Below, piece by piece: positions 53,739 to 56,063 of a DNA stretch of 64,000 nucleotides. Each line of letters begins with the position of its first letter. Position 1 is the stretch's first letter. Source of the DNA: Candidatus Thorarchaeota archaeon (GTDB taxonomy: Archaea; Asgardarchaeota; Thorarchaeia; Thorarchaeales; Thorarchaeaceae); NCBI GenBank assembly GCA_021498125.1, contig JAIZWL010000001.1, forward strand, positions 261,434-325,433, in the 5' to 3' direction. A model generated the notes under the pieces. It did not search any database. It was not told where the DNA came from and saw only the letters and a program-made list of their open reading frames with translations. The translations under genes were made by a program, and so were the position numbers.

Positions 53739-54569
53739 TCAGGTGAGTCCGCGGTGCCAGTACTGCTTGTGTGACCTTGTACGTTCCTCGTCCATTTCTG
53801 AGAGGATCTTGACGGCCTCGTTACCGCACTTGATGACATCATCCTCTCCACGTACTGCAAACTCGTCCCGTACTCTGTTAGCATAGACTGCACAGACAGC
53901 TCCGGTTCTGAGACCGTATATGTTCCCAAGTGTAAAGAGGGTCGCAGCCTCCATCTCGAAATTTACAACATTTGCCTTGGTGAGATCTCTGATGAGGGTC
54001 TCGCTCATGCTCTGAGTGTATCCTCCAAATCCGGGCCGAGATTGACCAAGGTAGAAGGAGTCTGTAGATGCCGATATCCCCAGATGATATGTAAAACCAA
54101 GGGACTCGGCCGCCTCAATAAGCGCAAGGACGATCTCGTAGGATGCCGAGGCTGGATATTCCGGTCTGACATACTGGTGACTTGTCCCCTCTAACCTTAC
54201 AGCCGCTGTAGAGATTATCATGTCACCCAGATCAATATCTTCCTTGAGAGTGGCAGTTGATCCCACCCGGATAAAGTTACGGGCACCAACATTGGCAAGC
54301 TCTTCCACAACGATTGCAGTTCCGGGACCCCCAATTCCTGTTGAACATGCGGATATCTCGGCTCCTCTATATTTTCCGGTATGAGTGACAAATTGGCGAT
54401 GCTCCGCCACCTCTTGCCAGTCATCCCAATACGAACTTATCTTTCTCACGCGCTTCGGATCACCTGGGAGCAGGACCGTCTGTGCCACCTCACCTACCTT
54501 GACTTCAAGGTGGTATTGTTTCCTGTCTTCTGTTTCGGGGCGCGTTGCTGAGATCTTGCCATCGTTCAT
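53739..54569 (-). CDS. udp: uridine/nucleoside phosphorylase
   Basis: A 276-residue PNP_UDP-family enzyme that splits nucleosides with phosphate to sugar-1-phosphate and base. L-P-G-D-P-K-R-V (34-41), S-T-G-I-G-G-P-G (76-83), R-V-G-S-T-A (101-106) and N-F-E-M-E-A-A are the phosphate-, ribose- and base-contact segments. It is convergent with rli1 and six bases from its stop. Confidence 0.9.
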   Translation of the reverse strand: MNDGKISATRPETEDRKQYHLEVKVGEVAQTVLLPGDPKRVRKISSYWDDWQEVAEHRQFVTHTGKYRGAEISACSTGIGGPGTAIVVEELANVGARNFIRVGSTATLKEDIDLGDMIISTAAVRLEGTSHQYVRPEYPASASYEIVLALIEAAESLGFTYHLGISASTDSFYLGQSRPGFGGYTQSMSETLIRDLTKANVVNFEMEAATLFTLGNIYGLRTGAVCAVYANRVRDEFAVRGEDDVIKCGNEAVKILSEMDEERTRSHKQYWHRGLT

Positions 54570-54805
54570 TGTTTGTCACCAATCACATTCTATGTTGTAA
54601 CTTGATTTGTTCCTTTCGTATCGAATATAGATGTGTCTTCTATGGTTCAAATTTGGCAGTGATTCTTGGCAGCAAGAGCGGTATGTGATCTCCCACATGT
54701 AGCCAGTCTACTGTAACTACTTACAAACTGAATCTAAACGGCCCAAATTTGATTCATTCCAAACTGTTATATGTATGTAGAATACCTGCCAGACATGGGC
54801 CTTCA

Positions 54806-54859
54806 CGTGATGGTCACTCCGACATGGCTAAAAGGAACGTTGGCCCCGTCGGAATCACG
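54806..54859 (+). promoter_or_regulatory. structured RNA element in the fbp leader
   Basis: CGTGAT (54806-54811) can pair with ATCACG (54854-54859) and TCCGAC (54818-54823) with GTCGGA (54848-54853), leaving a six-base bulge on the 5' side. Inside, GGC and GCC can close an inner loop. A second small hairpin (AGGAT-GAA-ATCCT) follows at about 54863-54875. These lie in the predicted 5' leader of fbp. Confidence 0.45.
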
Positions 54860-54884
54860 GTGAGGATGAAATCCTACATTCACA

Positions 54885-54900
54885 TGATTATCGATAATCA
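54885..54900. promoter_or_regulatory. 16-bp palindrome before fbp
   Basis: TGATTATCGATAATCA is a perfect palindrome 14 bases before the fbp start codon and just before a GGAG Shine-Dalgarno site. It could bind a dimeric regulator, or form a hairpin that covers the ribosome-binding site. Confidence 0.5.
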
Positions 54901-54914
54901 GGAGTACGTTAAAA

Positions 54915-56063
54915 ATGGTTGAAACCACAATTAGCGTCATCAAGGCGGACATCGGTTCGTTGGCGGGCCATGTCATTGTGCCAGACTTCTTGATGGAGCT
55001 TGCTCGCAAGCGGCTCAAGGAGGGCGTGCAAAAAGGCATCATAAAAGACTTTCATGTTGCCAATGCGGGTGATGATCTTGAACTCATCATGACTCATCAT
55101 AAGGGTGAGAATAATGAAGAGGTTCACACGCTTGCATGGGATATTTTCAACGAGGGCGCAAAGCTAGGTCGCGAGAAAAAGATCTATGCAGCAGGACAGG
55201 ATATTCTCTCAGACACCTTTAGTGGAAATGTTAGAGGGATGGGCCCCGGCTCTGCTGAGATGACGATTGAGGAACGAAAATCAGAACCCTTTGTTGTCTT
55301 CATGGCTGACAAGACAGAACCCGGTGCATACAACTACCCGTTGTTCAAGGTCTTTGCAGACCCCTTTAACACTGCAGGGCTTGTCATCGACCCGAACTTG
55401 CATCAGGGATTTACCTTTGTCATTCAGGACATTAAGAAAGCAACCCCACATTATGTGTCATTGGACTGTCCCGAAGAGATGTATGATCTGCTCGCTCTGA
55501 TGGGTAGTACTGGTAGATACACTATCAAGAAAATCTACAGGCGTGATGGACTTGTTGCGGCGTCGGTGAGTACCGACAAGCTCTATCAGGTCGCAGGCAA
55601 ATACATTGGTAAGGACGATCCTGTTGCAATCGTACGTGCTCATTCAGGCCTGCCTGCAATGGGTGAGGTCTTAGAGGCATTTACTCTACCTCATCTTGTT
55701 GCTGGTTGGATGCGTGGATCCCACATTGGGCCACTGATGCCAGTTGGTCTGAAGGACTCTCGTTGTACTCGATTTGATGGTCCCCCACGTGTTATTGCTC
55801 TAGGATTCCAAGTCAGTAATGGTACATTGCTTGGTCCCGTTGATATGTTCGAAGATGTTGCTTTTGACATATCCCGTAAGAGAGCAATGGAAGCAGCAGA
55901 CTACCTGCGCAGGCACGGTCCCTTCATGCCTCACAGGCTTGATGAGGAATCAATGGAGTACACAACACTTCCTGGTGTTCTCAAGAAATTAGAGACCCGC
56001 TTCTCCGAAAAGGAGATCGTACCAACTGGAAAGAGTGCTGATAATTCAGACTCGGCAGAATAG
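54915..56063 (+). CDS. fbp: fructose-1,6-bisphosphate aldolase/phosphatase
   Basis: A 382-residue bifunctional archaeal gluconeogenic enzyme that condenses triose phosphates and removes the 1-phosphate. The N-terminus K-A-D-I-G-S-L-A-G-H has the metal-binding Asp. Tyr230 and Lys233 (K-Y-I-G-K) keep the spacing of the catalytic Tyr and Schiff-base Lys of the family. D-x-x-x-D-P and G-P-P-R motifs follow. GGAG precedes the ATG. The upstream structured leader and palindrome suggest control. A hairpin terminator follows the stop. The triosephosphate isomerase gene lies 1.5 kb downstream. Confidence 0.95.
   Translation: MVETTISVIKADIGSLAGHVIVPDFLMELARKRLKEGVQKGIIKDFHVANAGDDLELIMTHHKGENNEEVHTLAWDIFNEGAKLGREKKIYAAGQDILSDTFSGNVRGMGPGSAEMTIEERKSEPFVVFMADKTEPGAYNYPLFKVFADPFNTAGLVIDPNLHQGFTFVIQDIKKATPHYVSLDCPEEMYDLLALMGSTGRYTIKKIYRRDGLVAASVSTDKLYQVAGKYIGKDDPVAIVRAHSGLPAMGEVLEAFTLPHLVAGWMRGSHIGPLMPVGLKDSRCTRFDGPPRVIALGFQVSNGTLLGPVDMFEDVAFDISRKRAMEAADYLRRHGPFMPHRLDEESMEYTTLPGVLKKLETRFSEKEIVPTGKSADNSDSAE

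Follow-up and report, generated by a model that had tools for sequence, protein, structure and literature searches.

The stretch analysed here, hereafter the window, comprises 64,000 nucleotides (64 kb) of an archaeal genome of 3.1 Mb, and our attention was centred on the region preceding fbp. This gene, located on the forward strand at 54915-56063, encodes the fructose-1,6-bisphosphate aldolase/phosphatase (Pfam FBPase_3, PF01950, 571.8 bits with a cut-off of 25), a protein for which 18 named records share 78-87% identity. It is preceded on the same strand by a Shine-Dalgarno-like AGGAG (54900-54904), and nearly all the printed fbp leaders carry, by eye, a GGAG at the corresponding place. On the other side of the leader lies a divergent gene (53739-54569) whose product resembles, by eye, a nucleoside phosphorylase. 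For comparison, 32 regions upstream of fbp were collected from one Thorarchaeota family.

The first element of the leader is a 24-bp palindrome (ACTGTTATATGTATGTAGAATACC, 54763-54786), a putative operator that is conserved across the family, with the consensus ACTATTCTATNNNNATAGAATAGT, and that contains a TATA-like box, the box of a predicted promoter P1. A previous sequence-only reading had rightly pointed to this box, but missed the conserved palindrome in which it is embedded. Allowing at most five mismatches in 20 positions, the operator was found in 25 of the 32 fbp leaders and in 0.09% of dinucleotide shuffles, the seven leaders with more mismatches being those of genus g4 and three others (L013, L027, L030). 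With at most three mismatches, the form found before fbp has a single match in the window, which is the site at 54763-54786 itself. A search across the family with this form hit 36 of 47 genomes. The symmetric pattern, with up to three mismatches, yielded 90 sites in the 47 genomes versus 8 for the reversed control (the sums being our own). Outside the family, in a search of the whole phylum, the operator counts resemble those of the reversed control, as read from the matches listed, which were left unsummed. A different palindrome (ACTATTCTCTGAGTATAAAATAGT, along with near forms) is common to genomes of another family, f12 (L312, L313 and L314, at 1501-1524), about 145 bp upstream of a gene resembling, by eye, that of HMG-CoA synthase; we judge it to be separate from the fbp operator.

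Behind most of the operator loci other than fbp lies a gene of about 362 amino acids, which corresponds to myo-inositol-1-phosphate synthase (Pfam PF01658; 114.3 and 65.4 bits for one example of each of two types, with a cut-off of 27). Most genomes of the family have two such paralogs, called here ino1A and ino1B, from which 43 upstream regions of type A and 32 of type B were obtained (two of the 34 type B genes gave no start). Applying the threshold used for fbp, the operator is present in all 43 ino1A regions (0.35% of shuffles) and in 29 of the 32 ino1B regions (0.25% of shuffles), the remaining three having more than five mismatches; in the window's own genome, the ino1A site reads ACTATTCTATGACCAGAGAATACT. 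A fourth target is a gene encoding a membrane protein of about 215 amino acids, two members of which matched no Pfam family above cut-off, and where the operator occurs mostly as a half-site. Among 30 regions upstream of this gene, 24 contain the right half, ATAGAATAGT, with at most one mismatch, versus 17 of 1500 shuffles, as do three of seven further regions; the window's own genome carries it with two mismatches (ATAGAATACC). Altogether, 67 of the 75 distinct sites listed precede fbp, ino1A, ino1B or the membrane-protein gene (58 were placed by script and nine stand before fbp of genus g5), and eight lie elsewhere. As read from the genomes of this family, one and the same palindrome precedes fbp, both ino1 genes and, as a half-site, the membrane-protein gene; that is, a common site stands before several functionally linked genes more often than chance would produce, as would be proper to the operator of a regulon.

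The position of the site with respect to the promoter elements, assessed by eye, differs among these targets. In ino1A and in the membrane-protein gene it lies between the TATA box and the start codon, the half-site of the latter following directly on a TATA-like box; in ino1B it is adjacent to the BRE/TATA element; and in fbp it contains the first TATA box, with a second predicted promoter, P2, about 30 bp further downstream. There is also a difference in sequence at position 7 of the palindrome, which is an A in all 27 fbp sites with at most six mismatches and a C in 37 of 43 ino1A and 25 of 29 ino1B sites. The A completes a TTATA box in the fbp sites, which argues for the use of P1. The presence of this box inside the palindrome, in fbp and in some ino1 sites, could suggest that the whole element is simply a strong type of core promoter, requiring no dedicated factor. 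We consider this unlikely, since most ino1A sites are located downstream of a separate TATA box, the symmetry extends over 24 bp, and the pattern is confined, as described above, to four genes in most of the listed sites and to a single match in the window. Binding by a regulator, which the sequence-only reading had already proposed for this leader, is supported, with 54763-54786 as the likely site instead of a shorter palindrome at 54885-54900.

Downstream of the operator, the leader contains several paired segments (forward strand, 54806-54859), supported by folding and by tests in the family. Just as the sequence-only reading had described, an outer stem pairs CGTGAT (54806-54811) with ATCACG (54854-54859), a six-base bulge occupies 54812-54817, and a second stem pairs TCCGAC (54818-54823) with GTCGGA (54848-54853), to which a predicted third inner stem (54826-54831 with 54840-54845) can be added. 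The small hairpin of 5 bp that follows (54863-54875) was likewise recovered, and so was an open frame of 22 codons beginning at 54795; the latter was set aside as a candidate, since neither its start nor its frame is kept, by eye, across the fbp leaders.

In the fold energy of the window's leader, the 66-nt stem region reaches a z-score of -2.95 (3 of 200 shuffles as good), and the entire 133-nt leader, -1.21 (23 of 200). When the stretch between the two predicted transcription start sites (TSS1 and TSS2) was compared with dinucleotide shuffles in 24 leaders, the mean z was -1.12, with values below -1 in 14 of them and a combined Stouffer score of -5.5 in which related leaders count as independent; control stretches of somewhat different length gave means of 0.29, -0.22 and 0.10. 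For the stretch from TSS2 to +45, the fold signal in the family leaders was not significant (Fisher p 0.07). Furthermore, an arm-swap test around P2 showed that pairing is better between the arms of one leader than between arms exchanged across lineages (centred p 0.0006). The p values of four controls were 0.14, 0.32, 0.051 (downstream) and 0.015 (reversed arm), and part of the signal may be due to composition in view of the last two; when each genus was represented by a single leader, p averaged 0.07.

In genus g5 the leader is short and has just a plain hairpin. Its 15 leaders, folded from just after TSS1, show a mean z of -1.95 (Stouffer -7.6, again with related leaders taken as independent) and include one, L040, at +0.56. 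In an alignment of four of the 15, picked for having their hairpins in register, pairing holds in 31 of 32 cells, and four of eight pairs change on both sides, a covariation score reached in 4 of 500 shuffles. Among six leaders of this genus (L011, L016, L040, L049, L113 and L159), several have a U-rich stretch in the loop region of the hairpin that follows the predicted start. Taken as a whole, these comparisons, whose statistics are moderate, suggest that what is kept in the leader stems is the kind of structure and not the sequence. The earlier proposal of RNA-level control would hold as regards structure kept by compensatory change, but not as regards the riboswitch-like mode of action that was envisaged.

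The only stretch conserved in sequence within the stem seems to be of another nature. The sequence TCCGAAA-NNN-CTAWWAC, or a near form of it, is present in 24 of the 32 fbp leaders, downstream of the conserved TTATA box and ahead of the start codon, and is missing in eight (L005, L013 and six leaders from genus g5); in the window it corresponds to TCCGACATGGCTAAAA, at 54818-54833 on the forward strand. When this core (TCCGAAANNNCTAWWAC) was met in most of the leaders, a riboswitch was the favoured reading, which was dropped once the same pattern appeared before tRNA-like sequences and could be derived solely from the regions preceding tRNAs. For the latter, expectation maximisation was applied to 28 such regions of the window's genome (from 30 matches, of which one partial and the weakest were dropped), with fbp excluded, and produced the BRE/TATA consensus AcCGAAAncTTTATAT, in register with the fbp core; the distance from the end of the site to the tRNA is 23-30 nt in 15 of the 28 and falls outside that range in 13. 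Since the same consensus arises from tRNA genes alone, the core is probably a second promoter, P2, as far as its sequence tells. Moreover, the search of the core pattern in the family gave 21 matches, ten of them before fbp, ten before sequences resembling tRNA-Lys by eye, and one (L114) before neither. In four of the ten tRNA-Lys-like sequences ARAGORN recognised an intact tRNA-Lys, with the core pattern 26 nt upstream. The promoter-like pattern also precedes the six in which it found no tRNA (L115, L117, L120, L122, L123 and L127, at 1501-1517), which are perhaps intron-bearing or broken copies.

A scan of the 32 fbp leaders with this model placed the best position at the P2 core or at the TTATA element of P1 in 26. 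Wherever the core is present (24 leaders), it ranked among the best three positions, in two cases only with an offset of one base. The scores are low in the window's own genus: in the window, P1 (54758-54773, forward strand, overlapping the operator) reaches 3.2 bits, the best position of the leader, and P2, 2.0 bits. In the six g5 leaders covered by the scan, 76-93 nt separate the end of the P1 element from the start codon; for P2 the corresponding distance is 71-83 nt in most of the others and 51-62 nt in two genera. With the spacing taken from the 15 of 28 tRNA sites, transcripts would start at about 54797-54804 from P1 and probably at about 54857-54864 from P2. A start downstream of 54860 had been named by the sequence-only reading as evidence against its structured leader; the prediction for P2 falls at about that point, but P1 would still transcribe the stem. 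The paired segments at 54806-54859 would then be RNA only when P1 is used.

The idea that the fbp leader is a ligand-sensing RNA, in which the core UCCGAAA-NNN-CUAWWAC binds a metabolite and controls the elongation or the translation of fbp, draws on the frequency of the core, on the folding of the stretch between the two start sites and on the preference of the arms around the core for their own partners. Against it, the core coincides with the BRE/TATA consensus, also found 26 nt before tRNA-Lys genes, its variation consists of A/T exchanges as in a TATA box, genus g5 lacks it, and the arm test weakens at one leader per genus, with the reversed-arm control giving a low p value itself. In addition, nothing in the fbp leader reached the gathering score of Rfam, where it had sub-threshold snoRNA matches only (in the whole window, one tRNA did reach it), and no riboswitch-like core was recognised in the fbp leaders compared. 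The resemblance to riboswitches is thus limited to a stem-rich leader before a metabolic gene, whose core is better explained as a promoter, and we regard ligand sensing as quite improbable. A role of the stems in mRNA stability or in spacing would fit them better.

Finally, the 16-bp palindrome at 54885-54900 is, as the sequence-only reading noted, perfect, and it adjoins AGGAG; no other perfect palindrome in the window reaches 16 bp. However, about one such is expected by chance in 64 kb, and both leaders of the same genus (L003 and L004) lack it. It is probably a product of chance, and a function as an operator or as a hairpin masking the ribosome site is hardly credible.

Returning to the 24-bp site, we favour, as fairly probable, the reading in which a dimeric transcription factor bound to it couples gluconeogenesis to the synthesis of inositol phosphate, within the scheme of P1 and P2. 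The coupling would follow the metabolic route itself, where gluconeogenesis leads to fructose 6-phosphate and from there to glucose 6-phosphate, which is used by inositol-phosphate synthesis. At ino1A and the membrane-protein gene, the factor, sitting between TATA and start codon, would cause repression; at fbp it would cover P1 at some 30 bp from P2, so that it could silence the former and help the latter. Transcripts from P2 would carry the short hairpin at their predicted 5′ end, and only those from P1 the stem at 54806-54859. A more elaborate version, possible but rather doubtful, is that of a tandem-promoter switch: a factor sensing sugar or inositol would pick, through one operator, either P1, with a covarying stem that encloses P2, or P2, with its short hairpin, in such a way that the choice of transcript and the structure of the leader would jointly match the output of fbp to the synthesis of inositol phosphate.

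With regard to the factor, none of the sites found in the family marks a regulator gene. In one ino1A locus (L202, 1018-3664) the gene order is that of a PH0730-like winged-helix/DUF4443 protein, an ERCC4-domain protein and ino1A. The first of them, two genes upstream of ino1A, matches PDB 2p8t with an E-value of 2.7e-10, and the gene lengths in several other of the operator loci away from fbp suggest the same order. This winged-helix protein is a candidate only, and so are the proteins of the TrmB family, for which the genome has 14 domain matches, ten of them over the cut-off and none linked to an operator site.

The closest known system is the Thermococcales glycolytic motif (TGM) of TrmBL1/Tgr, likewise a palindromic site common to genes of sugar metabolism, whose position also varies from gene to gene, after the TATA box in some and ahead of BRE/TATA in others. 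According to PMC4706686 and PMC4158304, the factor represses when bound after TATA and activates when bound ahead of BRE/TATA, and fbp has been reported as a target in Thermococcales, even though the ChIP-seq described in PMC4706686 gave no TrmBL1 binding at P. furiosus fbp. It is purely by analogy with this position rule that a single factor could act as a repressor at ino1A and P1 and at the same time help P2. The motifs themselves are different, TATCAC-N5-GTGATA in the TGM and ACTATTCTATNNNNATAGAATAGT here, where the site does not conform to the TGM, and the targets here are fbp and the ino1 genes; in the main text of both papers the word inositol does not occur. Other sites of the TrmB family given in the text of PMC4158304 are TACT-N3-AGTA, TACT-N7-8-GAGTA and two ATAATACT repeats, which are, like the present one, A/T-rich and inverted or repeated, and the half-site ATAGAATACT resembles ATAATACT by eye only.

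In titles and abstract starts, we found neither an operator with its regulon in an Asgard archaeon nor a tandem-promoter circuit of the fbp/inositol kind in this group; searches on archaeal riboswitches or 5′UTRs together with gluconeogenesis, and on archaetidylinositol in Asgard archaea, gave no such site at that same level, and a search on TrmBL1 together with inositol gave nothing.

In eukaryotes, INO1 is a classic regulated gene. The site common to fbp and to both ino1 genes offers a concrete circuit, open to testing, that would link gluconeogenesis to the synthesis of inositol phosphate, and the 24-bp sequence could serve as a DNA bait for finding the regulator. If the proposed coupling holds, this circuit would belong to a lineage that stands near the origin of eukaryotes.
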